From Lentisphaerota bacterium (GTDB lineage: Bacteria; Verrucomicrobiota; Kiritimatiellia; JAAZAB01), in assembly GCA_016188985.1 (NCBI GenBank), contig JACPGM010000047.1, positions 1 to 40,209 of the forward strand: DNA of 40,209 bases, read 5' to 3'. The notes beneath the pieces were generated by a model. The model saw nothing but the letters and a program-made list of their open reading frames with translations, was not told the DNA's origin and made no database searches. Numbering within the stretch: the stretch's first letter is position 1; every line of letters starts with the position of its first letter. Below, piece by piece: positions 3,691-27,253 of the stretch. The translations under genes and the position numbers were made by a program.

Positions 3691-3702
3691 AGCTTCAGGC
3701 GT

Positions 3703-5189: not shown

Positions 5190-5400
5190 AAGTCTTCCCC
5201 AAGGCGGCCTTTGGCCGCAACCTAACTTTTATCGCCTCCCGTTGTCCATCGCAGGGCGCATTTCGTTTCGCCCTGCACCCATGCCACGCAACCGCGGCGG
5301 TTGCGTGATCTAAGACTTGAGCAATTCCCGATCATACCCTTGACCTACGGCTTGGGATGCCAAACTTCTACGCAAAAGCGTGTTATCCTCCGCCACGGCT
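5190..5400. other. Operon-internal gap with strong stem-loops between mvhA and hdrC
   Basis: The gap contains two perfect inverted repeats: GCAGGGCG (5251-5258) with CGCCCTGC (5269-5276), and CACGCAACCGC (5285-5295) with GCGGTTGCGTG (5297-5307). Neither is followed by a good T-run on the minus strand, so they look more like processing or attenuation structures or palindromic repeats than intrinsic terminators. Confidence 0.45.
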
Positions 5401-6849: not shown

Positions 6850-6855
6850 GATATT

Positions 6856-7812: not shown

Positions 7813-7856
7813 TTTGGCATCCTCCTTCCTTTCCAATGAACCCCGCGCCGGTCAGG

Positions 7857-7892
7857 CCTGCCCGCAATGCTACGCATAGCGTTACAGGCGGG
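7857..7892. repeat. 36-bp CCTGCCCGCAATGC...AGGCGGG palindromic repeat, copy 1
   Basis: This copy is identical except for one base to the one at 35919-35954. It is a perfect-looking hairpin (CCTGCCCGC, then GCTACGCATAGC in the middle, then GGCGGG). It lies between mvhG and the 72-residue gene and supplies the last codons (PARL and stop) of that gene. Related shorter copies are at 23093-23142 and 24850-24902. Confidence 0.7.
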
Positions 7893-8100
7893 CCGGCGGA
7901 GGCGTGCCTTGCAGCACAATTTCTTTAACTACTCTACGGGTATAGAGAAGGACTTTGCCATCCTCCTCGACCCTTGCGGTTTCGAAACCTTGCGCGGCGT
8001 AGTCTTGCTCGCGCGCCGCGGCAGCCGCGGGCGAATCATAGACCACCCCATCCCACATAAACTTTTTCCCGGCAATCAACCTGAAATTGGCGGGCGTCAT
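7882..8100 (-). CDS. 72-residue hypothetical protein in the hydrogenase operon
   Basis: The ATG at 8100 follows AAAGGAG, and the gene sits between mvhD (11 bases upstream) and mvhG. The product, starting MTPANFRLIAGKKFMWDG, is a small soluble alpha/beta protein with the stretch VYDSPAAAAAREQDYAAQGFETARVEEDGKVL abbreviated here as a Tyr-Asp turn, an alanine helix and two strands, ending in VVKEIVL. It has no cysteines, so it does not bind a cluster through them. I do not recognise the family. Its position suggests an accessory or assembly role for the Mvh-Hdr complex. Its last residues are encoded by a mobile repeat, so the native C-terminus may have been altered. Confidence 0.7.
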   Translation of the reverse strand: MTPANFRLIAGKKFMWDGVVYDSPAAAAAREQDYAAQGFETARVEEDGKVLLYTRRVVKEIVLQGTPPPARL

Positions 8101-8111
8101 GGTCTGCTCCT

Positions 8112-8531
8112 TTACCCCACGTGGTACGGACTGGGACCAAGCGCTTTGACCTGCTCGGTCATTGTTTGCATCACCGCGGCAAACTTCGCGCCCTCCGAGG
8201 CCGAGACCCACTCCAGCCGGAAGCGCTCTTGTTCCAGACCGAAATCTTCCAGCATGAGCTTAATGGCCTCCGCGCGTTTCTCGGCCTTCAGGTTGCCTTC
8301 CAGATAATGGCAATCGCCCTTGTGGCAGCCGCAGATCACCACGCCATCCGCCCCTTTGGTGAGCGCATCCATGACCAGATTGGGATGCACCATCCCGGAA
8401 CACATCACCCGGATAATGCGCACATTGGGCGGATAGCGCAGGCGCGAGGTGCCCGCCAAATCCGCGCCGGTGTACGAGCACCAGTGGCAGCAGAACGCAA
8501 TGATTAAAGGCTCATATCCGTTTGTGCTCAT
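8112..8531 (-). CDS. mvhD: Hydrogenase-Hdr linker iron-sulfur protein MvhD
   Basis: The ATG at 8531 overlaps the hdrA stop in ATGA, which fixes the start and gives 139 residues. The protein has the MvhD cysteine pattern: FCCHWCSYTGAD near the start, VRIIRVMCSGMVHP, and VVICGCHKGDCHYLEGN. MvhD holds a [2Fe-2S] cluster and carries electrons from the MvhAG hydrogenase to HdrA. The tight coupling to hdrA supports formation of one MvhADG-HdrABC complex. Confidence 0.95.
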   Translation of the reverse strand: MSTNGYEPLIIAFCCHWCSYTGADLAGTSRLRYPPNVRIIRVMCSGMVHPNLVMDALTKGADGVVICGCHKGDCHYLEGNLKAEKRAEAIKLMLEDFGLEQERFRLEWVSASEGAKFAAVMQTMTEQVKALGPSPYHVG

Positions 8532-11500
8532 GCCGTTGCTCCCGTCAGCGCGGCATCCACCATGGCGCCGATCTGCTCGAGTTTGAAGCCCCGCACAAAG
8601 ATGCCTTTCTTGGGACAAGTCGCCATGCAGACACCGCAGCCCTTGCAGAGCGCCAGATCGCGGTCCACGGTCTTCTTAATGCTGCCGTTCCTTGCGTATT
8701 CAATCAAAGTCAGCGCATGATATGGGCAAGGATCAACGCAGTAGGCGCAGCCGTCGCAATTTTCATCAAGCACCATAGAGACAATTGCATCGAGCTCAAT
8801 TTTATCCTTGGCAATGATTGTGACGGCGCGCGAGGCCGCGGCGCAAGCCTGGTTGATGCTTTCTTCAACCAGTTTGGGCGAATGCGCCAGCCCACAGAGA
8901 AAAATGCCGTCGGTCGCGAAATCCACCGGCCTCAATTTCATATGCGCTTCCATGAAGAATTTGTCTTGGTTCAGAGGCACCTTCAACTTCTTGGCTAAAT
9001 CATCGTTGGCCGGCGCCGGAACGGTTCCCGCGGAAAGCACTACTAAATCGGCAGCGATAGACACTCTCTGTTTGAGAATAGGATCTTCCAGAGAAACTCT
9101 TAAGTGGCCGTTAGTCCTTGCCACCTCCGGCTTGTTAGTATCCTCATAACGGATAAACACCACGCCGGCCTCGCGCGCCTTGCGGTAGTATTCCTCGCGG
9201 AAGCCGTAGGAGCGCATATCGCGATAGAGGACATACACCGAGGCCTCCGGCTTAAGCTGCTTGAATTTCAAGGCATTCTTTATGGCAACCGAACAGCAGA
9301 TACGACTACAGTAAGGATGGTCCTTATCGCGCGAGCCAACACACTGGATCATTACAACCGAATTAACCCCGGTTACATCAGGATCGGAAACGGCGGCTGC
9401 TTCTTTTTGGCTGTCACCCTGAGCAGACCCCGAAGCAAATTGACTTGCAATCTTTTCCTCAAACTGGACCTGGGTAATCACCATTGGGTCTTGGCCGTAG
9501 AGGTATTCTTTCGGCTTATACTCCTCGGCGCCGGTTGCAACGATGATCACGCCGTGTTTAACCACCGCCTCCCGCCCGACTTGCGCGGAACGAGCTTCGC
9601 CCGAAGCAGGGGCCGCCCCGTCTTGCATAACCAGAGTGGTCTTAAAATTGCCCATTGAACCCTCAACTACACGCACCTCGGTTGTGGTATAAACTTTTAT
9701 CTTTTGATGAGTTGCAACTTTATCAATAAGGCGGTTTAACTCTTTCTGCGGGTCGGAACCTTCTTCCAGCAGGTATTTCAGATGTTTCATATTGCCGCCC
9801 AGTTCCGCCGCGCGCTCAACCAGATGAACGGCGAATCCCTGGTTGGCCAGTTCCAGGGCAGCGGTCATACCGGAAAGCCCGGCGCCAATTACGAGGGCAG
9901 CGTTCTGAACCTCTAAGAAACGGTTCTGGAGCGGTTCCAATAAGCGCGCCTTGGCTACTGCCATGCGGACTAAATCCTTGGCCTTCCTCGTGGCCTTTTC
10001 CGGCTCAAGCATATGCACCCAGGTATTCTGGTCGCGGATATTGGCCATTTCAAACAGGTACGGATTTAGCCCTGCTTCTCTGCATGTATTACGGAATAAC
10101 GATTCGTGTGTGCGCGGCGTGCAGGAGGCAACCACCACCCGGTTCAGGTCGTGCTTCTTGATCATCTCCTTAATCTTCTTCTGGGTATCCGATGAACAGG
10201 TGTAAAGATTGTCCTCGGCATAAACGACATCCGGCAGGCTCTGGGCATAATCGCGGATAGAGGGCACATCGGCCACGCCGCCGATATTCTTGCCGCAGTG
10301 ACATACGAATACGCCAATACGCGGGTTCTGACCATTGATACCCTTTTCCGGCGGGTATTCGCGGCTGGTAACCAACGTGCCTCTGGCTTCGGCCAGGAGC
10401 GTCATCGCCCTGGAAGCCGCGCCGGAGGCCTCCATCACTGTCTCCGGAATGTCCTTTGGCGCCACAAACGGTCCGCAGGCAAAAATGCCCGGCTGCGATG
10501 TCTCAACCGGCGTGAACTGGCCGGTCTTGCAGAAGTTGTGCTGGTTAAGCTCCACGTCGCAAATCCGGGCAAGTTGTTGCACGTCTTCCGGCGGGGCCAG
10601 GCCGGCCGATAGCACCACCATGTCAAACTCCGCCACCTGCCGCTGCTGGTCTTCATCGTAATAAACCAGCTCCAGGTTTCTGGTTTGCGGAACTTCTTTT
10701 ATGCTCGAAGGCCGGCACCGGGTGTACTTGACGCCCAATTCCTTGGCACGTTCATAGTAGGCCTCAAAACCCTTGCCGAAAGCGCGGATATCAATATAGA
10801 AAATATGGCATTCCAGATCCGGCTGATGCTCTTTGGCAATGATGGCTTCTTTGGTCGCATACATGCAGCAGACCGATGAGCAATAATTATGCTCCATCTC
10901 GCGCGAGCCGACACACTGGATAAAGGCAATCTTGTGGGGATGCTTGGCATCGGCCGGCCTCAGGATTTGGCCCTGATACGGGCCGCTGGCCGACATAATC
11001 CGTTCAAACTGGAGCGACGACACCACATTGGGATAGCGCCCGAACCCGAATTCCTGTTTGCGATTGGAATCAAACAGTTCAAAGCCCGGCGCGAGAATAA
11101 GCGCGCCCACATCAAGCGTTTGTTTCTCTTCAGCGGGCATATCATGGTTAATTGCCTTGGCCTCGCAGGCCGCCGCACAGAGCAGGCACTCACAGCAGAC
11201 TGCGCAGGAAAGACAGCGGCTTGCCTCTGCCTTGGCCTGCTCCTCGGTGTAACCGAGCTCCACCTCGCGGAAATTGCCCTTCCTCTGTTCTACCGGCAGG
11301 GTCGGCATTTTGACCCGCGCTTTCTTTTCTACGCCTTCAGTTTCTTTCTTTACCTCATCACGTACTGGTTCTTCCCGACCGACTTTTCCACCGGAGGCGG
11401 ATCCGCCTTTGGCGGAAAGATCCTGACCGCTCAGATAGCGGTCAATAGATTCAGCGGCTCGGCGACCGGCCACAATCGCTTCTATAGCTGTCGAAGGCCC

Positions 11501-13177
11501 GGAAACCGCATCGCCTCCGCAGAAAATTCCGGGGACGGACGTCTCCAGAGTTATACTATCAACCTCGACTAAGCCCCGCCGGTTGATCTTGATAGACTTG
11601 TCCGCCGAAGCCTCAGCGAAAGCGGCAGTTTTATCAAGGTTCGGCTGATTGCGTAGCGGAGTGGTATCCGGCTGTTGGCTGATTGCCGGGACAATAATAT
11701 CTACAGGAACGGTAAATTCAGAATCCTTGAGCGGGACTGGCCTGCGCCGGCCGGATGCATCCGGTTCGCCGAGTTCCATCTTGACACATTCCAAACCGGT
11801 CACCGCGCCCTTCCGGCCTAACACCCCGGTTGGCGCAGTTAGATAAGTAATCCTGATGCCTTCCTTTAAAGCCTCTTCAATTTCATTGGGGTTGGCCGGC
11901 ATTTCTTTGTGACTGCGGCGATAAATGATGGTAACTTCTGACGCCCCAAGCCGCCAAGCGCTGCGGGCCACATCCATCGCCACGTTACCGCCGCCGATTA
12001 CAGCCACCTTCTTACCCTTGACCTCCGGCGGGTTGCCGAGATTAAGGTCTTTCAAGAATGTGACCGCATCAATAACGCCGGCATATTCCTGCTCGCCGGA
12101 AATATCAAGTTTCAGCCCCTGCCAGGCGCCAATCGCCAAAAAGATCGCTTTGTAGCCCTGCTTCCTTAAACCATCCAACGTTAAATCCCGGCCCAGGGCG
12201 GAATTGAGCCTGAGTTCTACACCGAGATCAAGGACCGCCGCCCGAATCTCATTTTGTAATATCTCTTTAGGCAGGCGATAGTCCGGGATGCCGTATCTGA
12301 GCATCCCGCCGACATCCGGTTGCGACTCAAAGATGACAACCTGATATCCTTTGAGCGCCAACTCCCGTGCGGCCATTAGACCGGCCGGGCCGGCGCCAAT
12401 GATAGCGACTTTCTCGTCATGCTTCGCAATCTGTTGAACCTGCGGCTTTTTGTCGGGATTGGCCAATTCCCAATCTGAAAGAAATCGCTTAAGCGCCGCA
12501 ATGGAGATGGGCTCATCAAGTTCGTTACGGGTACATTCAGCCTCGCAAGGATGCAGACAAATCCGTCCGCAGATGGACGGAAATGGATTCTGACGGCGCT
12601 CAACCTCAAGCGCTTCGGCATACCGGCCTTGCGCAATCAGGGCAACATAAGCATGCGCATTAACCCCAGCCGGACAGGCAAACCGGCAGGGACTGACGCC
12701 CTGTTTGTCTATGGCAAACGCGCCGGGAACCGCCTGGGGGTAACGGCGGTAAATCGCATTGCGTTTGATGAGATCCACGTCAAACTCACTGTCAACCCTC
12801 ACCGGGCACTTAACCACACAGTCTGAACAGCCCGTGCATTTGGATAAATCAATGTAACGGGCGCGTTTTCTAATCGTTACCTTGAAATTGCCCGGCTCGC
12901 CTTCTACCTTCTCTAAATCGGCATTGGTAATTTTCTCTATATTAAAATGACTGCCCACATCAACGATTCTGGGCGCAAGCGTGCACATTGCGCAATCGTT
13001 GGTCGGAAAGGTCTTGTCCAACTGGGCCATTACGCCGCCAATACAGGGGGTCTTGTCTAATAGATAAACCTTGTAGCCGGCCTCGACCAAATCAAGCGAG
13101 GCCTGCATGCCGCCGATGCCGCCGCCTACGACCAGGGCGGCGCCGACTTTTCCGCTAAATTTCTTGTTTGGCGTCAT
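8528..13177 (-). CDS. hdrA: Giant HdrA: tandem HdrA flavoprotein with embedded GltD/NfnB-like NAD(P)H domain
   Basis: From the ATG at 13177 (a TTG seven codons upstream is the alternative) the protein is 1549 residues, roughly twice an ordinary HdrA. In order: a first FAD fold (ALVVGGGIGGMQ, ~14-60) with the HdrA loop NDCAMCTLAPR; a ferredoxin motif CTGCSDCVVKC (~114); a GltD-like unit (~163-580) with cysteines CRFAC, CGRICLHPCEAEC, an FAD fold VAIIGAGPAGLMA and a nucleotide fold VAVIGGGNVAMDVARSA followed by YRRSHKEMPA, the basic pair being typical for NADPH; a cysteine cluster CLSCAVCCECLLCAAAC (~655); an HdrA core with QCVGSRE; the HdrA start VFVCHCGKNIGG (~956); a second FAD fold VIGAGLSGMTAALEL (~1096); another QCVGSRD; and two C-terminal [4Fe-4S] motifs (CDGCAYCVDPC, CKGCGVCMATC). 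It should split electrons between ferredoxin, NAD(P)H and HdrBC. Several repeat-derived peptides sit in linkers. Confidence 0.93.
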   Translation of the reverse strand: MTPNKKFSGKVGAALVVGGGIGGMQASLDLVEAGYKVYLLDKTPCIGGVMAQLDKTFPTNDCAMCTLAPRIVDVGSHFNIEKITNADLEKVEGEPGNFKVTIRKRARYIDLSKCTGCSDCVVKCPVRVDSEFDVDLIKRNAIYRRYPQAVPGAFAIDKQGVSPCRFACPAGVNAHAYVALIAQGRYAEALEVERRQNPFPSICGRICLHPCEAECTRNELDEPISIAALKRFLSDWELANPDKKPQVQQIAKHDEKVAIIGAGPAGLMAARELALKGYQVVIFESQPDVGGMLRYGIPDYRLPKEILQNEIRAAVLDLGVELRLNSALGRDLTLDGLRKQGYKAIFLAIGAWQGLKLDISGEQEYAGVIDAVTFLKDLNLGNPPEVKGKKVAVIGGGNVAMDVARSAWRLGASEVTIIYRRSHKEMPANPNEIEEALKEGIRITYLTAPTGVLGRKGAVTGLECVKMELGEPDASGRRRPVPLKDSEFTVPVDIIVPAISQQPDTTPLRNQPNLDKTAAFAEASADKSIKINRRGLVEVDSITLETSVPGIFCGGDAVSGPSTAIEAIVAGRRAAESIDRYLSGQDLSAKGGSASGGKVGREEPVRDEVKKETEGVEKKARVKMPTLPVEQRKGNFREVELGYTEEQAKAEASRCLSCAVCCECLLCAAACEAKAINHDMPAEEKQTLDVGALILAPGFELFDSNRKQEFGFGRYPNVVSSLQFERIMSASGPYQGQILRPADAKHPHKIAFIQCVGSREMEHNYCSSVCCMYATKEAIIAKEHQPDLECHIFYIDIRAFGKGFEAYYERAKELGVKYTRCRPSSIKEVPQTRNLELVYYDEDQQRQVAEFDMVVLSAGLAPPEDVQQLARICDVELNQHNFCKTGQFTPVETSQPGIFACGPFVAPKDIPETVMEASGAASRAMTLLAEARGTLVTSREYPPEKGINGQNPRIGVFVCHCGKNIGGVADVPSIRDYAQSLPDVVYAEDNLYTCSSDTQKKIKEMIKKHDLNRVVVASCTPRTHESLFRNTCREAGLNPYLFEMANIRDQNTWVHMLEPEKATRKAKDLVRMAVAKARLLEPLQNRFLEVQNAALVIGAGLSGMTAALELANQGFAVHLVERAAELGGNMKHLKYLLEEGSDPQKELNRLIDKVATHQKIKVYTTTEVRVVEGSMGNFKTTLVMQDGAAPASGEARSAQVGREAVVKHGVIIVATGAEEYKPKEYLYGQDPMVITQVQFEEKIASQFASGSAQGDSQKEAAAVSDPDVTGVNSVVMIQCVGSRDKDHPYCSRICCSVAIKNALKFKQLKPEASVYVLYRDMRSYGFREEYYRKAREAGVVFIRYEDTNKPEVARTNGHLRVSLEDPILKQRVSIAADLVVLSAGTVPAPANDDLAKKLKVPLNQDKFFMEAHMKLRPVDFATDGIFLCGLAHSPKLVEESINQACAAASRAVTIIAKDKIELDAIVSMVLDENCDGCAYCVDPCPYHALTLIEYARNGSIKKTVDRDLALCKGCGVCMATCPKKGIFVRGFKLEQIGAMVDAALTGATA
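11386..11417. repeat. GGCGGATCCGCC palindromic repeat inserted in frame in hdrA
   Basis: This copy of the 32-bp palindrome family encodes the peptide LSAKGGSASGGK on the minus strand, in the linker between the GltD-like unit and the next cysteine cluster of HdrA (about residue 588). The reading frame is kept. A second repeat-like stretch at about 11608-11640 encodes AFAEASADK nearby, and a third at 9405-9440 (CACCCTGAGC motif) encodes SGSAQGDSQ. Confidence 0.6.
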
Positions 13178-13300
13178 GATCGCACCTGAACTCCTCAAAC
13201 TGCGGTCTCCACGCGTGTTTCCACGATCTTACTTGCCTCCCGTCCTGCCATTAAAAATGGTTTAACCTTTGCCGTTTTATTTCGGGCGGTTGCCCGGGTT

Positions 13301-17838: not shown

Positions 17839-19230
17839 ATGACCATACCACCAGAACTACAGACTGATTTTCTGGCCGGGCTTCTGCGCCGGACCAGCCG
17901 GCCGGCGCCGGCAATCGCCGCGGCAATTATCCAAAAAGCGCGCGCCAAAAAGGGACTGGCGCTTGAGGAGGTCGGCCGGCTGCTCAACCTGTCCGCCGCC
18001 GCCGGAAAAGATTCGCAACTCACCGAGCAACTTTTCCAGACAGCCGCGCTCGTCAAGCGGGAGATTTATGGGCCGCGGCTGGTTCTGTTTGCGCCACTGT
18101 ATATCTCGGACTACTGCGTCAACGACTGCGCCTACTGCAATTTCCATACCCGCAACCGGGAGCTCGTCCGCCGCAAGCTCACCCTGAGCGAAGTCGCCGC
18201 GCAGACCAGGTTCCTGATCAACCAGGGGCATAAACGTCTGCTCCTGGAGTTCGGGGAAGATCCGGTCCACAACCCCATAGACTATATCGTCAAGGTCATC
18301 CGTCAAATCTATGCGGCGCGAACGCCCCGGGGCAATATCCGCCGGGTAAATGTCAATATCGCCGCCACGACGGCGGCCGACTACCGCAAGCTCAAAGCCG
18401 CCGGCATCGGCACTTACCAGCTCTTTCAGGAAACCTATCACCGGCCGACCTATGAGCAATTGCACCGCGGTCCCAAGGCGGATTACGAGCGCCAGATCGG
18501 CGCGGCGGGCCGGGCCTTTGCCGGCGGGATTGAAGACGTGGGTTTGGGCGCGCTTTTCGGGCTGTATGACTGGCGCTTTGAAGTGCTCGCGCTGGTGGCC
18601 CACAGCCAGTATCTGGAGCGCACCTACAAGGTCGGTCCCCATACGATTTCAGTTCCGCGCTTGCGCCCCGCGCCGACGGTTACTTATCGGGCGGCTTACC
18701 CGGTGAGCGATGACGATTTTCTGCGGTTGATTGCGATCCTCCGGCTGGCCTTGCCGTATGTGGGCATGATTATTTCCACGCGCGAGCGTCCGGAAATCCG
18801 CCGGCAAGCGTTCCAAATTGGCATCTCCCAGGCCAGCGCCGGCTCGGTTACCGTTACCGGCGGCTACGGCCGCCAAAGGCGGCAACCCCAGTTTGCCATT
18901 GCGGATGAAAGGCCGCTACAGGAAGTAATCCGCGCCGTCATGGCGGACAAACTGATCCCGAGTTTCTGCACCGCCTGTTACCGCCGCGGCCGGACGGGCG
19001 AGCGCTTCATGCAACTGGCCAAGCCTGGATCCATTCAACACCTCTGTCAGCCCAACGCCCTCCTGACCTTGGCCGAATATCTGGCCGATTTCACCACGGA
19101 CGGCCTGCGGGAAAAAGGATACCGGCTGATTGCAGCCGGCCTGCGGCAGATCACCGATGATGCGGTGCGTTCGGAGACCGAGCGGCGCCTGGCGCAAGTG
19201 CGTGCCGGGGCGCGGGATTTATATTTTTGA
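17839..19230 (+). CDS. hydG: HydG, tyrosine lyase making CO and cyanide on iron
   Basis: The 463-residue protein follows T. italicus-type HydG from end to end. It has the radical SAM motif CVNDCAYC (C93, C97, C100), then the lines FGEDPVHNPIDYIV, RRVNVNIAATT, GTYQLFQETYHRPTYEQLH and VGPHTISVPRLRP, with H268 at the position that holds the dangler iron. The C-terminal cluster cysteines are CTACYRRGRTGERFM (C377, C380) and HLCQPN (C403), and the protein ends in RDLYF as HydG does. ThiH lacks this last domain, so HydG is clear. The enzyme cleaves tyrosine to yield an Fe(CO)2(CN) cysteine synthon for [FeFe] hydrogenase. No [FeFe] hydrogenase, nor hydF, is in the window; it stands between hypA-like and hypC-hydE genes opposite a [NiFe] operon. 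Confidence 0.95.
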   Translation: MTIPPELQTDFLAGLLRRTSRPAPAIAAAIIQKARAKKGLALEEVGRLLNLSAAAGKDSQLTEQLFQTAALVKREIYGPRLVLFAPLYISDYCVNDCAYCNFHTRNRELVRRKLTLSEVAAQTRFLINQGHKRLLLEFGEDPVHNPIDYIVKVIRQIYAARTPRGNIRRVNVNIAATTAADYRKLKAAGIGTYQLFQETYHRPTYEQLHRGPKADYERQIGAAGRAFAGGIEDVGLGALFGLYDWRFEVLALVAHSQYLERTYKVGPHTISVPRLRPAPTVTYRAAYPVSDDDFLRLIAILRLALPYVGMIISTRERPEIRRQAFQIGISQASAGSVTVTGGYGRQRRQPQFAIADERPLQEVIRAVMADKLIPSFCTACYRRGRTGERFMQLAKPGSIQHLCQPNALLTLAEYLADFTTDGLREKGYRLIAAGLRQITDDAVRSETERRLAQVRAGARDLYF

Positions 19231-19416: not shown

Positions 19417-20634
19417 ATGTGTTACGCCATTCCAGGGAAAGTAGTGGAACTCAACGGACGCCACGCCGTCATTGACTACTTCGGCGAACGCCGCCAGGCC
19501 TATACCGACCTCACCCGCCCCTCTCCGGGCGACTATGTCTATGCCCAGGGCGGGTTCGTAATTCAAACCGTGCCGGCCCAGGAAGCCTTGGCAATTCTGG
19601 CTGACTGGCAGGAACTTTTTTTCCGGCTCCAGCAAACCGATCAAAAATTGGCCCAAAGGAAGCGCACGCTTCATGAGCAGGCCAACGCCGTCCGCCAGCA
19701 ATTTCAGGGCAACTCCTGTTGCGTTCACGGCATTCTGGAGTTCTCCAACTACTGCCGGAATAACTGCCTCTACTGCGGCATCCGCAAGGACAACCGCAAG
19801 TTACAACGCTATCGCATGAGCGAACAAGAAATCCTGCAAGCCGTCGAATACGCCGTTAATCAATTGGGGTTCCGCGCGCTGGTCCTGCAGTCGGGCGAAG
19901 ATTTTTGGTACAGCGAGGCCAAACTCTGCCGGATCGTCAGGGAAATCCGCGCGCGCTTTTCTGTGCTCATTTTTTTGTCGCTGGGCGAGCGGCCGCGCGC
20001 GACCTACCACAAGTTATATGAGGCCGGCGCCCGTGGCGCTTTGATCCGGTTCGAGACCAGCGACGCGGAGCAGTATAAAAAAATCAAGCCGGAATCCACC
20101 CTGGCCGACCGTCTCGGGCTCATCAAAGACCTCCGCGATCTCGGCTATCTGATTATTTCCGGTTTCCTGATGGGCTTGCCGGACCCGACGGCGGGCGTGG
20201 CCCAAAGCGGGCCGCGGGGACAGAACGGCCGGAACGTTCTTGCCGACATCAAGCGGACGGCCGAATCGGGGGCCGAGATGTTTTCGTTCGGGCCGTTCAT
20301 TCCCCACCCGGAAACGCCCTTGGCCGCCGCCCGAGGGCCCCGGCTGGCCACCGTGCTTAACGCCATTGCCCAGGCCCGCTTGATGTATCCGACCGCCAAG
20401 ATTCTGGTAACTACGGCCTTGGAGACTTTGGATCCCGCGCAGGGCGCGCGGGCCGGCCTGATGGCCGGCGCCAATTCCCTGATGATCAATATCACTCCGC
20501 AAAAATACCGCCGCCTTTACGAGATTTATCCTAACCGCGCCGGCGTTGAGGATGACACGCCTAAGCGCATTGACAAGCTGCTCGAATTACTGCATGCCCT
20601 CGGCCGCGCCCCGACCGATATCGGGGTTTCTTAG
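19417..20634 (+). CDS. hydE: HypC-HydE fusion protein
   Basis: This 405-residue protein joins two maturation factors. Residues 1-66 are HypC: MCYAIPGKVVEL with the essential Cys2, HAVIDYFGERRQAY, GDYVYAQGGFVIQ and EALAILADW; the usual HypC histidine in VHAG is replaced by Gln44. From about residue 85 it is HydE: ILEFSNYCRNNCLYCGIR with C113, C117 and C120, then YRMSEQEIL, LVLQSGEDFWY, FLSLGERP, MGLPDPT, FGPFIPHPETPLA, TTALETLDP, and GANSLMINITP. The HydE radical SAM enzyme processes the HydG iron synthon for [FeFe] hydrogenase; HypC carries Fe(CO)(CN)2 to [NiFe] large subunits. Covalent joining suggests the synthon is handed directly to HypC and then to MvhA. An AAGG stands 9 bases before the ATG. 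The first ~35 residues of normal HydE are replaced by HypC. Confidence 0.92.
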   Translation: MCYAIPGKVVELNGRHAVIDYFGERRQAYTDLTRPSPGDYVYAQGGFVIQTVPAQEALAILADWQELFFRLQQTDQKLAQRKRTLHEQANAVRQQFQGNSCCVHGILEFSNYCRNNCLYCGIRKDNRKLQRYRMSEQEILQAVEYAVNQLGFRALVLQSGEDFWYSEAKLCRIVREIRARFSVLIFLSLGERPRATYHKLYEAGARGALIRFETSDAEQYKKIKPESTLADRLGLIKDLRDLGYLIISGFLMGLPDPTAGVAQSGPRGQNGRNVLADIKRTAESGAEMFSFGPFIPHPETPLAAARGPRLATVLNAIAQARLMYPTAKILVTTALETLDPAQGARAGLMAGANSLMINITPQKYRRLYEIYPNRAGVEDDTPKRIDKLLELLHALGRAPTDIGVS

Positions 20635-20784: not shown

Positions 20785-21915
20785 ATGGCCGTGGGCAAAA
20801 ACCTTAACACTCCCAGCGCCGTGCAGGCGCCTGGGCCGGAGCCAACGCCTGGTCAGCCCAGCAGCGCCAGCGCGCTTAATCACCCGTCGCTGCAGAAGCT
20901 TGACGAGCTTTCGCGCCAGTTGCTTGACATCGGTCTGGCCGTAGTCTTGCCGCACGCCAAGGGCTGGGAACACCTCTGGCTGAGCGGCAACGGGCCCTGG
21001 GCGCCCTATTGCCGGCTTTTCCTGCGCCATGCGGAAGGCGCCAAACAATGCAAGATGTGCCATATCCTCATGGCCGTTGCCGCCTGCACTCAAGGCATCC
21101 GCGAGCACCGTTGTCACACGGGCGCCTCGGTGCTCGTAGCGCCGGTTCAGCAGCCTCATGGTGAAGCCGCGGCGGTCTTGAGTAATTGTGTTTTTTTTAC
21201 CGGCAAGCGCGCCAACATCTGGCCCGAAACACGGGAACGCGGAAAAAAACTCGGCCTGGACCTGAAGAAGTTGCGCAAAGAGTTTCTGGCCTTGCCGGAA
21301 CCGACCGCCGAAAAAAAAGCGCTTGCCCATCTTATCCTGGAAACGGCCGCTCAGATGGCCGCGGAACTTTCCCGCCGGCGCCTGCTGGAACAGGAGTTGA
21401 ACAAACTGCGCAATCGCGTACAAGGCAAGGAGTTCAATCCCTCGGCGGTCGAACGCATCCTCAACACGGCCATGAAAATGCCATCGAATCACAAACCGGC
21501 CACGGCCCCGCCTGCCCGCCATAGCTCGCAGAGCGACGGCGGGCGGCACGGCGCGGCGCACGGCGCGCCGGAACCAGATTCCAACGGAAAAACTCCGCCG
21601 GCCATCGTCAAAGTGGTAAAAAACCTGGTGAACCATCGGCCGGATCTTAACTTCTGCGTAACCGAAATTGCGCGGGCCGCGCGCCTTTCCCCAAATTATT
21701 TCTCGGCCTTATTTCGCCGCTATGCCGACGAAAGATTCTCGGATTTCCTTCTCAACCGCCGGATTGAACTGGCCCAGAAATATCTGCGCGACAAAACCTT
21801 GAACGTCAGCGAGGTGGCCTTCAAGGTGGGTTTTGACGACCCCGGTTATTTTATCAGACGTTTCAAGCGCCGCGTGGGCCTGACGCCCGGAGCATGGCGC
21901 AGCCGCCTGGCGTAG
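20785..21915 (+). CDS. AraC-family regulator with PocR-type sensor domain
   Basis: The 376-residue protein has an N-terminal PocR-like domain (about 35-145) with YCRLFLRHAEGAKQCKMCHILMA shortened here to its Cys-x2-Cys-His motif, then REHRCHTG, a cysteine and histidine set usual for this sensor. A helical linker (about 180-215) and a low-complexity, Ala/His/Pro-rich stretch follow. The C-terminal AraC DNA-binding domain (about 275-376) has LNFCVTEIARAARLSPNYFS and VSEVAFKVGFDDPGYFIRRF. PocR-type domains sense small metabolites or, with their cysteines, possibly metals or redox state. It stands between the hydrogenase-maturation genes and the peptide-prenyl block and could control either. No strong ribosome-binding site is seen before its ATG. 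Confidence 0.88.
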   Translation: MAVGKNLNTPSAVQAPGPEPTPGQPSSASALNHPSLQKLDELSRQLLDIGLAVVLPHAKGWEHLWLSGNGPWAPYCRLFLRHAEGAKQCKMCHILMAVAACTQGIREHRCHTGASVLVAPVQQPHGEAAAVLSNCVFFTGKRANIWPETRERGKKLGLDLKKLRKEFLALPEPTAEKKALAHLILETAAQMAAELSRRRLLEQELNKLRNRVQGKEFNPSAVERILNTAMKMPSNHKPATAPPARHSSQSDGGRHGAAHGAPEPDSNGKTPPAIVKVVKNLVNHRPDLNFCVTEIARAARLSPNYFSALFRRYADERFSDFLLNRRIELAQKYLRDKTLNVSEVAFKVGFDDPGYFIRRFKRRVGLTPGAWRSRLA

Positions 21916-22035: not shown

Positions 22036-22935
22036 ATGAGCAATAAATCCTTTGAGCTGCGGCTGAACGACGTGCGCGGGGTAATGCTCAATAGCCTGCG
22101 CCCTACAGCGCTTGGAGCGCTGAGCGCGGAGCTGCGGGGGGTCTTAAGCGCCGGCAAAATGTTGCGCGCGCGCCTGATTCTGCGTCTGGGCCCGGCCACT
22201 GGCCTGAACGCCGGCACGCAGGTCCTCACCGCCGCGGCCGTCGAAATGATCCATGCCGCCAGCCTGCTGCACGATGATGTCATTGACGGCTCCGAACTGC
22301 GGCGCGGGGCGCCGTCCTTTTGGATAACGCGCGGCGTCTCGGGCGCCATCCTCCTGGGCGACTTGCTGGTCTGTCGCACTTTCCGGGAGCTCAATGCCAA
22401 CTGCCCCCAACTGGTCAGCCCCCTGTTGCGCTTCATGGAAGAAATGTGCGACGCCGAAACCGAACAGGAATTGCTGCTGCGCAACACCGCGCCGGACTGG
22501 CCCAAATGCGTAAACCTGGCCCGGCGCAAGACCGGCTCGCTCTTTGCCTTCGCCGGCTATGCCTGCGGCCAGAACGACGCTGAGCTTTGCGAAGCGCTTC
22601 AGGAAGCCGGCTATGTCATCGGCACCGCCTATCAGTTAGCGGATGATGTTTTAGACGCCACCGGCGACCCCGCGGCGGCCGATAAAACATTGGGCACCGA
22701 TGCGCTGAACGGCAAATTGACCGCGGTCTCCGCCTGGGCCGGACCGAGCTCGGCCAGGGAAACGCGCCCGGCCAACCTGGGCCGTTATGTGGGCCAACTG
22801 TGCGCCGGCACCGGAAAGACGTTAAGGCCGTGGCCAACGGTTGAGGAAGCCTGGAACGAATATATGGCGCTGGACATGTTGCCGGCGATAGCTGCCATGA
22901 CCGAACTGCTCCCGGCCGCGGAGGCCGTAAAGTGA
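22036..22935 (+). CDS. Polyprenyl diphosphate synthase (trans-isoprenyl)
   Basis: The start is taken at the ATG at 22036 since the 26 upstream codons are repeat-like sequence. The 299-residue protein has the GKMLRARL substrate motif (about 40), the first aspartate-rich motif LLHDDVID (D80, D81, D84) followed by GSELRRGAPSFW, and the second, YQLADDVLDATGD (about 203-207). Both motifs are complete, so it should elongate allylic diphosphates with IPP. Residues just before the first motif (MIHAASLL) have no bulky block, which points to a long-chain product such as those used for quinone tails. At 299 residues it is a little short. The likely client is the UbiA-type prenyltransferase at 26372. IPP would come from the MEP pathway (ispF at 28619). 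Confidence 0.88.
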   Translation: MSNKSFELRLNDVRGVMLNSLRPTALGALSAELRGVLSAGKMLRARLILRLGPATGLNAGTQVLTAAAVEMIHAASLLHDDVIDGSELRRGAPSFWITRGVSGAILLGDLLVCRTFRELNANCPQLVSPLLRFMEEMCDAETEQELLLRNTAPDWPKCVNLARRKTGSLFAFAGYACGQNDAELCEALQEAGYVIGTAYQLADDVLDATGDPAAADKTLGTDALNGKLTAVSAWAGPSSARETRPANLGRYVGQLCAGTGKTLRPWPTVEEAWNEYMALDMLPAIAAMTELLPAAEAVK

Positions 22936-22971
22936 CACTCTACCACATGAACGCCGCGTGACCTGCCCGCA

Positions 22972-23007
22972 GTCGCTACGCTCCAACGTTGCGCGGGGGG
23001 GGGGGGG
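22972..23007. repeat. Degenerate CCTGCCCGC repeat ending in a run of 13 G
   Basis: The gap before the sensor kinase begins with CCTGCCCGCAGTCGCTACGC, a variant of the CCTGCCCGC repeat, and ends in thirteen consecutive G (22995-23007), 27 bases before the kinase ATG. Such a homopolymer is prone to slippage and also to assembly error. Confidence 0.6.
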
Positions 23008-23034
23008 CATGCGGCCTACAGAAATTGCCAACCC

Positions 23035-24501
23035 ATGAGCACGCTTGAATTGACCCCACCCGCTAAGTCCGCGCCAGAGCAACCCTTGCAAGCGGGCGGG
23101 CCTGCCCGCAATGCTTCCCGATTCTATCGGGATGCGGGCGGGTTCGACGCCGCCGTTTTCGTGAATAACGCCAAGTGGTTCATTCGCATCCGCTGGCTGG
23201 CGGTAGGCGTGCTGGCGCTCACGGGAGTTCTGGGCACTCTGTTTCCCGCTACCATCACGGAGCTTGGTTTCGTGCCGCCCATCCGATGGCCCTGGGCCTT
23301 GGCCGTAATCCTGGCCGGAGCCAATTTATGTTTCTGGATCCTGGCGCGAAAACTAAATGAAGCTGCGGAACTGCGCCTGGCCGAAAACAACATCTGGCTG
23401 CAGATCCTGGTAGACCTGGCGATTGTCACCCTTCTGGTTCATATCGTCGGCAGCACTACAACTTTCATCTCTTTCATTTACCTGCTGCACGTCGTGCTGG
23501 CCTGCGTCTTCTTTTCCATCCGGCAAAGCCTGCTGGTTACCATGCTGGCGGCGAATGCTTATCTGTTGTGCGTGGTCCTGGAATTGACCGGCGTCTGGCC
23601 AGCCGGCGGCGTTCTCCTGCACGCCGAATATCCCCATGCGCCGATCATGCTGGATATTGCCTTTGCCGCCTCGGCGGTGTTTATCTGGCTGGTCGTCTGG
23701 TATCTCGTTTCGCACCTGGCCGAAACCCTGCGCCGGCGCGATCGGCAACTCAGCCTGGCCAATGCAGCGCTTAAGGCTGCTGACCAGGAAAAAAACCTTC
23801 AGGTACTGCGCACCACCCACGACCTCAAGGCGCCGTTTTCCGGAATTGAAAGCAACATCCATATACTAAGATTCCAGCACTGGGACGCGCTGCCGCCGGC
23901 GGCTCGCGCCATCCTGGAGAACATCGAAACCCGCGCCCAGGTCTTGCGCGAACGTATTCGCGATATTTTCATTCTGGGCGAACTGCGCTCCCAGGCGCCC
24001 GGCGCCGACTCCGATAGCCAAACCGACCTGCAGGCCGTCATCAAGACAGTGATTGAAGACTTGGCCGATAAAGCGCAGAGCCGCACGATCGAGTTGCGCG
24101 TTGCCGTGCCGGCCATTGCCGTCAAGGTCAGTCCCAAACCACTAACCATGCTTTTTGCCAATGTGATTGCCAACGCCATTATTTACTCCCACCCCGGCGG
24201 CGAGGTCGAGGTCTCCGCCCAAGATGACGCCGCGGCCGTCACGGTTCAAGTCCGCGACCACGGCATTGGCATCCGCGACGAGGAACTGCCCCATATTTTC
24301 GAGGAGTATTACCGGACCAGGGAAGCCGCCGAGTTTAACAGCCTGTCCACCGGCTTAGGCCTGGCTATCGTCAAGGAAATAGCGCAAAAATGGGACCTTA
24401 CTTTGCGCGTTGAGAGCAGCTTAGGTCAGGGCACCATCTTCGCCGTGGTCTTGCCGCGCGCGAGTGCAACCACGGCCCAGGAGCTTAACAGTCGCGCGTA
24501 A
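23035..24501 (+). CDS. Six-helix membrane sensor histidine kinase (RegB-like layout)
   Basis: The 488-residue protein has six hydrophobic helices (about 48-70, 86-104, 120-137, 143-162, 166-185 and 204-228), then a short coiled linker and a kinase module. The H-box is TTHDLKAPFSGI with H262, the N-box NVIANAIIYS, the G1 box DHGIGIRDEE, and the G2 box STGLGLAIVKEIA. Six helices followed directly by the kinase resemble RegB/PrrB, which senses the quinone pool, but the GGxxNPF quinone motif appears only as GSTTTF. Location among prenyl and quinone-like genes fits a redox or quinone sensor. No response regulator is adjacent; the free receiver at 2713 is one candidate. Residues about 20-36 are encoded by a palindromic repeat, so the start may truly be the GTG at 23161. 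Confidence 0.85.
   Translation: MSTLELTPPAKSAPEQPLQAGGPARNASRFYRDAGGFDAAVFVNNAKWFIRIRWLAVGVLALTGVLGTLFPATITELGFVPPIRWPWALAVILAGANLCFWILARKLNEAAELRLAENNIWLQILVDLAIVTLLVHIVGSTTTFISFIYLLHVVLACVFFSIRQSLLVTMLAANAYLLCVVLELTGVWPAGGVLLHAEYPHAPIMLDIAFAASAVFIWLVVWYLVSHLAETLRRRDRQLSLANAALKAADQEKNLQVLRTTHDLKAPFSGIESNIHILRFQHWDALPPAARAILENIETRAQVLRERIRDIFILGELRSQAPGADSDSQTDLQAVIKTVIEDLADKAQSRTIELRVAVPAIAVKVSPKPLTMLFANVIANAIIYSHPGGEVEVSAQDDAAAVTVQVRDHGIGIRDEELPHIFEEYYRTREAAEFNSLSTGLGLAIVKEIAQKWDLTLRVESSLGQGTIFAVVLPRASATTAQELNSRA
23093..23142. repeat. Palindromic repeat within the start of the sensor kinase gene
   Basis: The stretch CGGGCCTGCCCGCAATGC and its mirrored half GATGCGGGCGGG, with an inner CCCGATTCTATCGGG hairpin (23117-23131), is related to the 36-bp repeat at 7857 and 35919. 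It lies in frame at codons 20-36, in the cytoplasmic leader before the first membrane helix. Confidence 0.65.
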
Positions 24502-24632
24502 TGACCGATTTGTTACATTTTTTTTACATTTTTTTGTATTGCTCTCTACGGGAACACACGCTAAATTGCGGCGCGTGGTTTGGGAAACAATAAAAGGTTG
24601 AGTAGTGTTCACTTAATAAGTGGAGGTGTGTG

Positions 24633-24779
24633 ATGGCTGCTGCGCAGGAAGTAAAACTGACCAAGAAAAGTCCCGCCAAGGGCGCATGCGGTAAAGAAAC
24701 CAAGCGGAAATGGGAAAAGCCCACCTGGCAGGATGTCTCCGGCGGCGTAATGGCCCAGCCGTATATCCGGTTCACTTGA
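24633..24779 (+). CDS. PqqA-like ribosomal precursor peptide (48 residues)
   Basis: An ATG at 24633 stands 6 bases after a good GGAGG (24622-24626). The first half is lysine-rich and polar with one cysteine (C19). The last 22 residues begin KWEKPTWQDVSGG and end PYIRFT. They line up without gaps with PqqA as I remember it from Klebsiella: W27, K29, P30, D34, G38, Y44 and I45 match, and the C-termini coincide. The glutamate that PqqE links to tyrosine is Met40 here. A Gly-Gly (37-38) could be a leader-cleavage point, leaving ten residues with Tyr44. The next genes encode a PqqD-like recognition protein and a radical SAM enzyme, so a modified peptide is likely. The final product is unknown. Confidence 0.72.
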   Translation: MAAAQEVKLTKKSPAKGACGKETKRKWEKPTWQDVSGGVMAQPYIRFT

Positions 24780-25146
24780 TTTTTAGATCAAGGCGGCTTA
24801 TCCAGCGGCGCACCACAGGCTAAAGCCAGAGAACAGTCCCGCGAGTCTGCCTGAGCGCCCGCAATGCTTCCCGATGCGCTGAACGCGATCGGAATGCAGG
24901 CGTCTCGTCTACCGGCCAGTTTGGAACAGGCAGATCGGTGTAGCGGCCGTTTCCACCACAGGCGGACAAGCGTGAGAACGGTGCCTTGGCGGTTCTAACG
25001 AACCGCACCTACACTCCTGATCGGCGCTCTCTGGCCGACGCTCGGGCAGGCGGGCAGACAGGCAGGCCGCCCAACAACTCACCAATGTCTGCCCGGGCAC
25101 GGCCGGGAAATCGCTTAACTCAGCTTGGCACATGAAAGGACAGCTT
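24780..25146. other. Gap between precursor peptide and PqqD-like gene, filled by repeats
   Basis: No gene or second precursor copy is visible in this 367-base gap. It holds a CGCCCGCAATGCTTCCCGAT hairpin repeat (about 24850-24902), the GGTGTAG element at 24938-25014, and GGCAGGCGGGCAGACAGGCAGG-like direct repeats near 25048-25070. A weak AAGGA at 25137 serves the next gene. Confidence 0.5.
24938..25014. repeat. GGTGTAG...CTACAC mobile repeat, copy 1
   Basis: The ends GGTGTAGCGGCCG (24938-24950) and CGAACCGCACCTACAC (24999-25014) both recur, in the opposite orientation, at 35903-35996, with 12 of 13 and 15 of 16 bases matching. The element is 77 bp here and non-coding. Confidence 0.6.
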
Positions 25147-25416
25147 ATGCAATTTGCCCCGCATGTAAAATGGCGCCGCGAAAAATTCGGCGCTGTGGTT
25201 TTCGACACGCTTAGCGAAAAAATTTACGTAACCAATGCCATCGGCGGCGCCGTCCTCTCCCTCATGGCGCAGGGTCTGGATGCCGCGGCCCTCATCGCGC
25301 GGTTGCAGCAGGATTTCGACGGCGACCCCGCCCAAATCGAAACGGAAGCGGCCGCCTTTCTCCAGGCGCTGCAATCGGCCGGGTTCCTGGCAAAACCGGG
25401 CGGGGGGGCGTCATGA
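25147..25416 (+). CDS. PqqD-family peptide recognition protein (RRE)
   Basis: The ATG at 25147 follows AAGGA; the product is 89 residues. VKWRREKFGAVVFDTLSEKIYVTNAIGGAVLSLM shortened to its features shows two edge strands followed by a helix, and then a second and third helix rich in leucine (ALIARLQQDF, AAAFLQALQSAGFL), the winged-helix pattern of PqqD and related RiPP recognition elements. Such proteins bind the leader of a precursor through its edge strand and bring it to a radical SAM enzyme. Its stop overlaps the radical SAM start in ATGA, so the two are made together. The W-x-K-P motif of the 48-residue peptide is the likely ligand. Confidence 0.88.
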   Translation: MQFAPHVKWRREKFGAVVFDTLSEKIYVTNAIGGAVLSLMAQGLDAAALIARLQQDFDGDPAQIETEAAAFLQALQSAGFLAKPGGGAS

Positions 25417-26375
25417 CACAAGCGCTCGCGACCATTCCCGGAGCATCGGTTGAGCAGTATGAGGCTCCGCTCTTCATCGCCTGGCAGATTAACGCCGAGT
25501 GCAATCTGAACTGCTTCCACTGCTGCGAAGAAGCCGGAATGGCCTTTCCCGATCAGATGAGCAAGGCGCAGATGCTCGATCTGTGCGCGCAGATCGTCAA
25601 GGCCCAGATCCCCTACGTCGCGCTCTCCGGCGGCGAGCCGCTCATCTGCCCGCATTTCTGGGACGTGCTGGAATACCTGCGCAAAAACAATGTCAGCGTC
25701 AAAATCGAAACCAACGGCGAATTTATTGACGAGAAGGTGGCGCGACGCCTGGGCGCCCTCACTCTGCGCTCCGTTCAGATCAGCATGGACGGCGCCACGG
25801 CCAAGAGCCATGAGGCTTTGCGCGAACGCGGCAACTGGCAGAAGGTGATCCGGGCCTGCAAGCTGCTGCGTGACACAAGCGCTAATATCGAGATCGTCTT
25901 CGTGCCCACCCGCTTCAACATCCACGAGGTCGGCGAGGCCGTGGACCTGGCGGCCTCGCTGCAGGCGCATGGCTTTTACACCGGCAAACTCATGCGCATC
26001 GGCCGCGCCGCCCAAAACTGGCAGAAACTATGTCCCTCCGACGACCAATACCGCGAATTCTTTGCCGTGCTGGAGCAGAAAAAGGCGCTCTATTTGGGGC
26101 GCATGAAGGTGTTTAATTATCCCTATGACGTGATTGAAGAATTGCGCTACCGGTTGGAAGCGCCCGCGGCCAGCCTGCTCGTGCTGCCTAACGGCAAGGT
26201 GAAGCTGATCGGACCCCTGCCCTTCATTTGCGGCGACGTGACCGTCATGCCGCTCACCCAGGTCTGGCGCAACTACAAGAAAGCCTGGAAGGATAAGCGC
26301 GTCACCGAGTTTGCCAGCCGCGTCCTCAAGAATCCCGCGCTGGTCGCCGAAGCCAACCGCTGGAGAGAATTGTGA
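25413..26375 (+). CDS. Radical SAM peptide-modifying enzyme (PqqE-like, no clear SPASM clusters)
   Basis: The 320-residue protein has the motif CNLNCFHC (C30, C34, C37) after IAWQINAE, SGGEPLICP for SAM binding, KIETNGE, and VQISMDGATAKSHEALRERGNW, all standard for the PqqE/AlbA/mycofactocin group. The C-terminal region ends FICGDVTVMPLTQVWRNYKKAW and is laid out like a SPASM domain, but has only one cysteine there. Auxiliary clusters are therefore probably lost, unlike PqqE. It should act on the precursor peptide at 24633, delivered by the PqqD-like protein. Possible reactions include a C-C bond, oxidation or decarboxylation at the conserved tyrosine. It overlaps the prenyltransferase gene by GTGA. 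Confidence 0.88.
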   Translation: MTQALATIPGASVEQYEAPLFIAWQINAECNLNCFHCCEEAGMAFPDQMSKAQMLDLCAQIVKAQIPYVALSGGEPLICPHFWDVLEYLRKNNVSVKIETNGEFIDEKVARRLGALTLRSVQISMDGATAKSHEALRERGNWQKVIRACKLLRDTSANIEIVFVPTRFNIHEVGEAVDLAASLQAHGFYTGKLMRIGRAAQNWQKLCPSDDQYREFFAVLEQKKALYLGRMKVFNYPYDVIEELRYRLEAPAASLLVLPNGKVKLIGPLPFICGDVTVMPLTQVWRNYKKAWKDKRVTEFASRVLKNPALVAEANRWREL

Positions 26376-27253
26376 GCGTTGGACTAAGCCTGGCCACCGT
26401 GGCCGGCGCATTGCGCTACCGCTTCTTCCTGGTGGCCGGCATATTTCCTTATCTCCTGGGAGCGGCCGTTGCCGGCCGGGACGGCGCAACCGCGGATTGG
26501 TGGCTGCTGTTTGTGGGATTGGCCGGTGTTCTCGCCGTCAGCGCGGGCATTGAAGGGCTAAACGAATACTTCGACACGCTAATCGGCACCGATCGAGTTT
26601 TTGAATTAGGCCAGCGCCCTAAGGCCCACTGGCCTTTGCCGGTAGGGATCTCAGGTTTTGGCGTTGCCTTCCTGATCGGGATATATCTGACCTGCCTGCG
26701 CGGCTGGCCGATTCTGGCGTTGATGCTCTTTGGCGGGGCGGCGGCCCTCTCGTATCTTTGCCCAGGCGTCCATTTGTCCTACCGCGGCCTGGGCGAAACC
26801 GTAATTACCATCAGCTACGGGTGCGGCTTGACCCTGGGCGGCTACTATCTGCAGGCCGGAGGCTTGAGCTGGAGCTGCGTGTGGGCATCGCTGCTGCCCG
26901 CGTTGCTGATCCTGGCCATGACGCTGGCTAACGAGGTCCCCGATTATCATGGCAGCCAGTTGGTCGGCAAGCGCAATATCGTCGTCCGCCTTGGCCGCCT
27001 GGGCGCGGCATGGGCGTATTGTCTCGTCACGGCCTCAGCCTTTCTCCTGTTGTTAGCCGGACTGCTCAGCGGCATTTATCCCGCGTTGCTGGGCTGGGCT
27101 TTTCTGCTGGCGCCTTTTGCGCTGGTTAACAGCCGAGCGGCCCTGCGCCTTTACGAGGCGCCGGTAAGTTTCTGCCGGGTTATTCGCGGCGCCATGCTCC
27201 AGTATGTTTTAATTACCCTCCTTGCCGCCGTGAGCTACGCCTGGGGCGGCTGA
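26372..27253 (+). CDS. UbiA-superfamily prenyltransferase (MenA-like)
   Basis: A GTG at 26372 overlaps the stop of the radical SAM gene. The 293-residue protein is highly hydrophobic with eight or nine predicted helices. The first prenyl-diphosphate motif is NEYFDTLIGTD (N64, D68, D74), the MenA spacing with Glu in place of the second residue. The second is NEVPDYHGSQLVGKRNIVVRLG abbreviated to N187, D191, K200 and R201, also like MenA. MenA attaches a polyprenyl tail to 1,4-dihydroxy-2-naphthoate. Here no other menaquinone gene is present, and the gene is translationally coupled to peptide-modifying enzymes, so the acceptor may be an aromatic compound derived from the peptide. The polyprenyl donor would be made by the synthase at 22036. 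Confidence 0.88.
   Translation: MSVGLSLATVAGALRYRFFLVAGIFPYLLGAAVAGRDGATADWWLLFVGLAGVLAVSAGIEGLNEYFDTLIGTDRVFELGQRPKAHWPLPVGISGFGVAFLIGIYLTCLRGWPILALMLFGGAAALSYLCPGVHLSYRGLGETVITISYGCGLTLGGYYLQAGGLSWSCVWASLLPALLILAMTLANEVPDYHGSQLVGKRNIVVRLGRLGAAWAYCLVTASAFLLLLAGLLSGIYPALLGWAFLLAPFALVNSRAALRLYEAPVSFCRVIRGAMLQYVLITLLAAVSYAWGG

Follow-up and report, generated by a model that had tools for sequence, protein, structure and literature searches.

A precursor peptide encoded with a prenyltransferase

The 40,209-nucleotide contig JACPGM010000047.1 of a Lentisphaerota bacterium (assembly GCA_016188985.1), analysed at its full length and hereafter called the window, belongs to a 3.09-Mb genome of 173 contigs that is 86% complete. 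On its plus strand lies a gene set that joins a small precursor peptide to a radical S-adenosylmethionine (SAM) enzyme (rSAM) and a membrane prenyltransferase. It begins with a polyprenyl diphosphate synthase (22036..22935; PF00348, E 1.5e-38) and a membrane sensor histidine kinase (23035..24501; HATPase, E 5e-23, and HisKA), followed by the 48-residue precursor, MAAAQEVKLTKKSPAKGACGKETKRKWEKPTWQDVSGGVMAQPYIRFT (24633..24779), a PqqD-like peptide-recognition protein (25147..25416, alternative start 25132; PF05402, E 2e-11), an rSAM peptide-modifying enzyme of 320 residues (25413..26375; PF04055, E 3e-20) and a UbiA-superfamily prenyltransferase resembling MenA and UBIAD1 (26372..27253; PF01040, E 3e-18). 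The open reading frames, the sequence itself and the Pfam matches agree with the preliminary description, made from the letters of this DNA, in the order of these genes and in the four-base overlaps of the last three, which are exact: ATGA at 25413-25416 between the PqqD and rSAM genes, and GTGA at 26372-26375 between the rSAM and UbiA genes.

The precursor ends in MAQPYIRFT (24750..24776, the Tyr codon at 24762-24764), which is the same at all 21 loci where we found the system. Its C-terminal half is kept throughout, with the pattern W-x2-P-x3-D-V-S-x2-[VI]-M-A-Q-P-Y-I-R-F-T-stop. Not one amino acid of the core changes across the 21 loci, whereas nearly every codon varies synonymously, with all four Ala, all four Pro and all six Arg codons in use; it is thus the amino acids rather than the DNA that are held constant. 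Identity of the rSAM enzyme to that of the window meanwhile drops to 41%. No model in Pfam or NCBIfam, including that of PqqA, matched the window peptide. The identical core with varied codons at 21 loci, and linkage to the other genes at 20 of them, nevertheless mark the 48-residue peptide as a real gene product.

Between the peptide and PqqD genes, approximately 350 bases (24780-25130) contain no evident gene, and a weak terminator-like site lies at 24757-24772. Such a gap and site could set the ratio of peptide to enzymes.

Distribution and co-evolution of the loci

Searches of 388 genomes of the window's phylum and of 85,000 species genomes yielded 21 distinct loci, distributed over phyla of the Planctomycetota–Verrucomicrobiota–Chlamydiota group, Omnitrophota, a 'Bacillota' metagenome-assembled genome (MAG) and Alpha-, Beta- and Gammaproteobacteria. 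Besides the window's own, the only rSAM orthologues among the 388 genomes of the phylum are those of two Lentisphaeria-type genomes, G276 (66% identity; locus L014) and G052 (55%; L032), both listed under Lentisphaerota, and none was found in three searched genomes of the window's genus. The remaining loci belong to Planctomycetota (L013, L017 and L019), Omnitrophota (L015, L016, L018, L021 and L022, with L020 placed beside them), the 'Bacillota' MAG (L024), a further locus with a single rSAM gene (L023), and a proteobacterial group (L025-L030) comprising Rhodovibrio sodomensis, a betaproteobacterium, an Azospirillaceae MAG, Rhodothalassium salexigens and two gammaproteobacteria, together with a broken locus of Burkholderiales (L033). 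One Omnitrophota assembly (G389) holds two copies of the cluster, L015 and L022, one behind an Nqr/Rnf operon and the other, as read by eye, behind Hdr/sulfhydrogenase-type genes.

Gene-neighbourhood analysis, which the preliminary description had proposed as a check, showed UbiA to be a constant partner of the rSAM enzyme: peptide, PqqD, rSAM and UbiA genes are linked at 20 of the 21 loci. The exception is the Burkholderiales locus, where an intact peptide with the identical core is accompanied by truncated or frame-broken rSAM pieces (10001-11106) directly behind frdCAB, owing either to decay or to MAG errors. Two layouts occur. The order peptide–PqqD–rSAM–UbiA, with one rSAM gene, is shared by the window, Planctomycetota, Lentisphaerota, Omnitrophota, L023 and L024, and the proteobacterial loci are arranged as PqqD–rSAM1–UbiA–rSAM2–peptide–rSAM3, the three rSAM proteins forming separate clades that all keep C-x3-C-x2-C. 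This three-rSAM cluster is rare, being absent from 398 other Pseudomonadota genomes sampled. Pairwise distances of the rSAM enzymes correlate with those of UbiA (r = 0.91 for 13 single-rSAM clusters and 0.65 for all 19) and of PqqD (0.85 and 0.86, respectively), values unmatched in 2,000 shuffles. Judged from these comparisons, the association of the genes is not due to chance.

A mobile or viral origin was considered and rejected, since viral contigs, phages and plasmids contain no orthologue, and the matches found there are other rSAM proteins of less than 45% identity. Five more distant rSAM matches (L031 and L034-L037), which come without a peptide or UbiA match, were set aside. Two of the hosts, Rhodothalassium salexigens DSM 2132 and Rhodovibrio sodomensis DSM 9895, are cultured type strains, which makes the system directly testable.

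The enzymes and the known systems they resemble

Orthologues of the rSAM enzyme are present in all clusters. The structure model of the window protein (pLDDT, the predicted local distance difference test, 90.7) finds its nearest folds in SkfB, PqqE (second best) and SuiB, all of which are peptide maturases. C30, C34 and C37 of the C30-x3-C34-x2-C37 motif and G73-G74-E75-P76 (GGEP) are invariant among the orthologues, so that the cysteine motif, GGEP and the maturase fold place the enzyme among the rSAM peptide maturases. Because C273 is the only other invariant cysteine in 20 aligned orthologues, the enzyme very probably lacks the auxiliary SPASM clusters that PqqE and MftC possess. With a precursor, a recognition protein and a modifying enzyme at 20 intact loci, the arrangement is that of a ribosomally synthesized and post-translationally modified peptide (RiPP) with a PqqD-type recognition element; this front half of the pathway is of a known kind.

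Its resemblance to pyrroloquinoline quinone (PQQ) synthesis extends to the small precursor, the PqqD-type chaperone, the rSAM enzyme, a W-x2-P ahead of the core and a single Tyr near the C-terminus. The peptide had been called PqqA-like, which describes its overall layout well. However, the glutamate that is cross-linked in PqqA, within the motif E-x3-Y (PMC12423496), is replaced by Met four positions before the core Tyr at all 21 loci, and the system also differs in its added UbiA and its invariant peptide core. The PqqD-like protein stays under every NCBIfam cut-off (27.9 against 46 bits for the PqqD equivalog), and the rSAM enzyme, which lacks the SPASM cysteines, reaches 64.6 of the 381 bits required of PqqE. 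With mycofactocin the set shares the logic of a peptide-derived redox cofactor, and MftC is the nearest rSAM model (137.7 bits against an equivalog cut-off of 265). The C-terminus of MftA is Val-Tyr, whereas all our peptides end in YIRFT, and mycofactocin is not prenylated. GeoRSP likewise combines PqqD with an rSAM enzyme, with scores here of 20.2 against 100 bits and 74 against 400 bits, respectively. The comparison with GeoRSP and PQQ-like systems, also put forward in the preliminary description, thus leaves the gene set outside both, and outside mycofactocin as well. Hyphomicrobium and others carry a second, 'anaerobic' pqqAED-puuD-serC-pyrD cluster proposed to make PQQ without oxygen (PMC12423496); it resembles the present loci in holding an additional PqqA, PqqD and PqqE set and differs in that no UbiA is listed and PQQ is the proposed product.

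The prenyltransferase shows the UbiA-superfamily hallmarks, namely PF01040, N64-E65-x2-D68, N187-x3-D191 and, in a model of pLDDT 85.2, a fold nearest to human UBIAD1 (template-modelling scores 0.74/0.77), the enzyme that makes menaquinone-4. GKRN is a further likeness to MenA and UBIAD1. Its best NCBIfam models are MenA types, all below their cut-offs (PRK06080/NF004751, 87 against 264 bits; TIGR00751, 35.7 against 102), and, unlike MenA, it sits with a peptide and an rSAM gene rather than with men or mqn genes. Taken together, these profiles describe a conserved, unnamed system that departs from PQQ, mycofactocin, GeoRSP and MenA in the defining features tested.

The polyprenyl diphosphate synthase is the probable supplier of the prenyl tail. 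That of the window is 37% identical to the synthase heading the nqr operon of G276, and such synthases also adjoin the cluster at L015, L016, L021 and L022. The sensor kinase is a possible regulator of the system. Its kinase domains confirm part of the earlier label 'six-helix sensor kinase', and the six helices are plausible, not proven (18.9 against 27 bits for a 6TM PilS-like model). It matches the RegB/PrrB/ActS model NF033792 over the full length, below the cut-off, and aligns at full length (28% identity) with a kinase directly after UbiA at L021. The latter carries GGIENPF, which fits the quinone-sensing heptapeptide GGXXNPF of RegB (PMC8191878); the window kinase has GSTTTF there. At the end of UbiA in G052, an overlapping SAM-dependent methyltransferase gene (L012 7663-8460) could provide a tailoring step.

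Respiratory setting, quinone supply and the candidate product

The loci are repeatedly found among genes for respiratory complexes. One contig of G276 (C16) carries a polyprenyl synthase and nqrA, B, C, D and E, and another (C250) the remainder of the peptide gene, pqqD, rSAM, ubiA and nqrF. Within the peptide gene, the two contig ends overlap by exactly 99 bases without a mismatch, and we accordingly place the cluster between nqrE and nqrF of a single Na+-NQR operon headed by the synthase, an inferred join of assembly ends rather than finished sequence. NqrD passes its NCBIfam cut-offs in this genome, and NqrB, C, E and F fall just under theirs. The Omnitrophota assembly G389 has, at L015, an Nqr/Rnf hybrid operon (NqrF over cut-off, an RnfC-type first subunit) whose end lies 10-25 bases ahead of the peptide gene, with a polyprenyl synthase after UbiA. 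Neighbours of the cluster at L018 include ApbE, FMN-binding genes and, as read by eye, several successive complex I (nuo) subunits, and L020 shares the ApbE/FMN-binding stretch (by eye); frdC, frdA and frdB are directly upstream at L033. G052 (95% complete) encodes NDH-2 (match to a PDB entry, E 9e-97), a polyprenyl synthase, CydA and CydB consecutively.

The hosts largely lack the recognised menaquinone routes. MenD and MenB are over cut-off in none of 25 genomes, each being recovered by the same searches in 7 of 14 control genomes, and PF02621 (MqnA/MqnD) is over cut-off in one of 20 hosts, MqnC not being part of the search. An ordinary menaquinone operon with an unconserved peptide, the contrary case raised in the preliminary description, is the opposite of what these genomes hold: the cluster has no men or mqn neighbours and its peptide core is invariant. 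For G052, G392, G394 and G395, the UbiA gene of the cluster is the only member of its family that we found. We consider G052 the strongest case, given that it combines quinone-dependent enzymes on both sides of the pool with no other prenyltransferase for quinone synthesis and with no MenD, MenB or MqnA/D over cut-off; uptake of quinones from neighbours may be an alternative source. The window genome has two further UbiA genes, both resembling decaprenyl-phosphate phosphoribosyltransferase.

We propose that this gene set makes a membrane-bound, quinone-like lipid, a prenylated redox carrier of ribosomal origin, and assign this reading a probability of roughly 0.6. What is observed is which genes occur, their order, conservation and co-evolution, and their surroundings in the genomes; from this we infer the chemical steps, head group, proteolysis and electron-carrying role as follows. 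By analogy with PqqA, PqqD and PqqE, the W-x2-P-x3-D-V-S region would serve recognition and MAQPYIRFT would be acted upon as substrate; the PqqD-like protein would bind the former and hand the peptide to the rSAM enzyme. This would modify the core, most likely at the single Tyr, the sole core residue that can readily give a phenolic, prenylatable ring. Since the transferase is MenA/UBIAD1-like, the acceptor may be a bicyclic or carboxylated phenol, which could arise by ring-forming rSAM chemistry. An unlinked peptidase would free the Tyr-derived aromatic unit, before or after UbiA prenylates it with the polyprenyl diphosphate made by the neighbouring synthase; genes outside the cluster would supply peptidases and a final oxidation, as is the case for some PQQ producers. 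The oxidised product would then shuttle electrons between membrane complexes, for example Na+-NQR/Rnf-type pumps, NDH-2, complex I, fumarate reductase or cytochrome bd. The quinone-like membrane carrier suggested in the preliminary description gains support from the Nqr, NDH-2/cytochrome bd, nuo and frd linkage and from the genome in which the cluster holds the only UbiA. The more specific proposal, that some bacteria living anaerobically or microaerobically have as their sole quinone a respiratory lipoquinone with a head group cut from a ribosomal peptide, made by a route distinct from the ubiquinone, Men and futalosine pathways, stands at scarcely better than even odds.

Several observations weigh against a membrane carrier of this kind. 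The cluster conserves neither a peptidase nor an oxidase or hydroxylase, the lipid carrier is a predicted product, and nine invariant residues exceed what a product made from Tyr only would require. The proteobacterial hosts also have a ubiquinone-type UbiA, so the cluster product is not the sole quinone there. The window genome, 86% complete as it is, yielded only NrfD-type complexes and no NqrB, CydA or NuoH when searched, and residue 195 of the window UbiA is Ser instead of the Asp found in at least 90% of 19 UbiA proteins; on account of this replacement, the window copy may be weakened.

Alternatively, the peptide could become a natural product, modified by the rSAM enzyme and UbiA and exported as a lipopeptide signal or antimicrobial. 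RiPP loci typically have this precursor–PqqD–rSAM layout, and some RiPPs are prenylated (PMC12715784); we nonetheless find this unlikely, as bioactive RiPPs diversify whereas the core is identical across several phyla, no exporter or immunity gene was recognised by eye in the flanks, and the clusters are placed among respiratory operons. A small prenylated protein that is never cut and, anchored in the membrane, assists respiratory complexes or carries a cofactor for them would account for the invariance of all nine C-terminal residues and for insertion inside an nqr operon. That the clusters also occur with nuo, with frd or with no Nqr genes, and that a PqqD-type recognition protein usually implies later removal of the leader, render such a protein very improbable.

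Other explanations separate the prenylated head group from the peptide or identify it with a known one. The peptide, PqqD and rSAM genes might yield a soluble PQQ-like cofactor, while UbiA and the synthase separately prenylate a head group that is conventional or scavenged, for example 1,4-dihydroxy-2-naphthoate (DHNA). UbiA does score best against MenA models, and a lone UbiA could use DHNA taken up from outside. We hold such a division of labour to be a shade less likely than an exported lipopeptide. Against it stand the overlap of the UbiA and rSAM genes in the window, the co-evolution of the two and the occurrence of UbiA in 20 of 20 unbroken clusters; nor was a PqqB- or PqqC-like partner recognised. 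Menaquinone or a close naphthoquinone, its DHNA-type head group made by a ribosomal route, would suit the MenA/UBIAD1 likeness. It would also suit Rhodovibrio, which is reported to contain MK-10, a menaquinone (PMC7179689), while in R. sodomensis no MenD or MenB reaches its cut-off and the MqnA/D family gives just two matches, both partial and too weak to pass. Yet the same genome holds a true MenA besides a second, MenA-like gene: it stands alone (L088 474-1436; 334 against 264 bits) without men neighbours, which weakens the idea that the cluster UbiA makes MK-10. The menaquinone of Rhodovibrio could be fed by the peptide route or made by an unrecognised one; the orphan MenA may have such a precursor route, the old report may need re-checking, and no known chemistry leads from MAQPYIRFT to DHNA. 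We therefore regard a menaquinone product as doubtful, more so than a division into two pathways. Overall, none of these rivals suits the genomic context as well as a prenylated redox carrier in the membrane does.

Open-licence papers in PubMed Central, the literature covered here, contained neither the core sequence, nor anything joining PqqD and UbiA in one pathway, nor a coupling of peptide maturase, prenylation and respiratory operon. To our knowledge, isoprenoid quinones derive their head groups from small metabolites, and the peptide-derived redox cofactors that we know of, PQQ and mycofactocin, are not membrane quinones. If correct, a peptide-encoded lipoquinone would join these two fields as a new cellular way of making a quinone-like molecule, provide a quinone source for genomes that have quinone enzymes and no known pathway, and widen the range of redox carriers for Na+-NQR and similar pumps.

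Further genes were recorded around the system and elsewhere in the window genome. An AraC-type regulator with a PocR sensory domain (20785-21915) lies just upstream of the cluster. Ahead of it are [FeFe] hydrogenase maturation genes: HydG (17839-19230; 515 against a cut-off of 312 bits) adjoins a HydE-like maturase (19417-20634; 249 against 254.6 bits) whose N-terminal HupF/HypC domain (E 1.9e-14) amounts to a [NiFe]-maturation chaperone domain fused to a [FeFe]-maturase-type rSAM protein. The minus strand at 3154-13198 encodes, as judged by eye, an Mvh-type [NiFe] hydrogenase with HdrA, HdrB and HdrC, including a 1556-residue HdrA-like protein apparently fused to a GltD-like part. NrfD was detected in none of five same-genus or same-family genomes tested. 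In the window genome itself, two NrfD-type membrane subunits, an iron-sulfur/ferredoxin-like subunit and multihaem cytochromes share one contig (L070, G000:C24), and ApbE and Rex are also found at this cluster, a reading made partly by eye.

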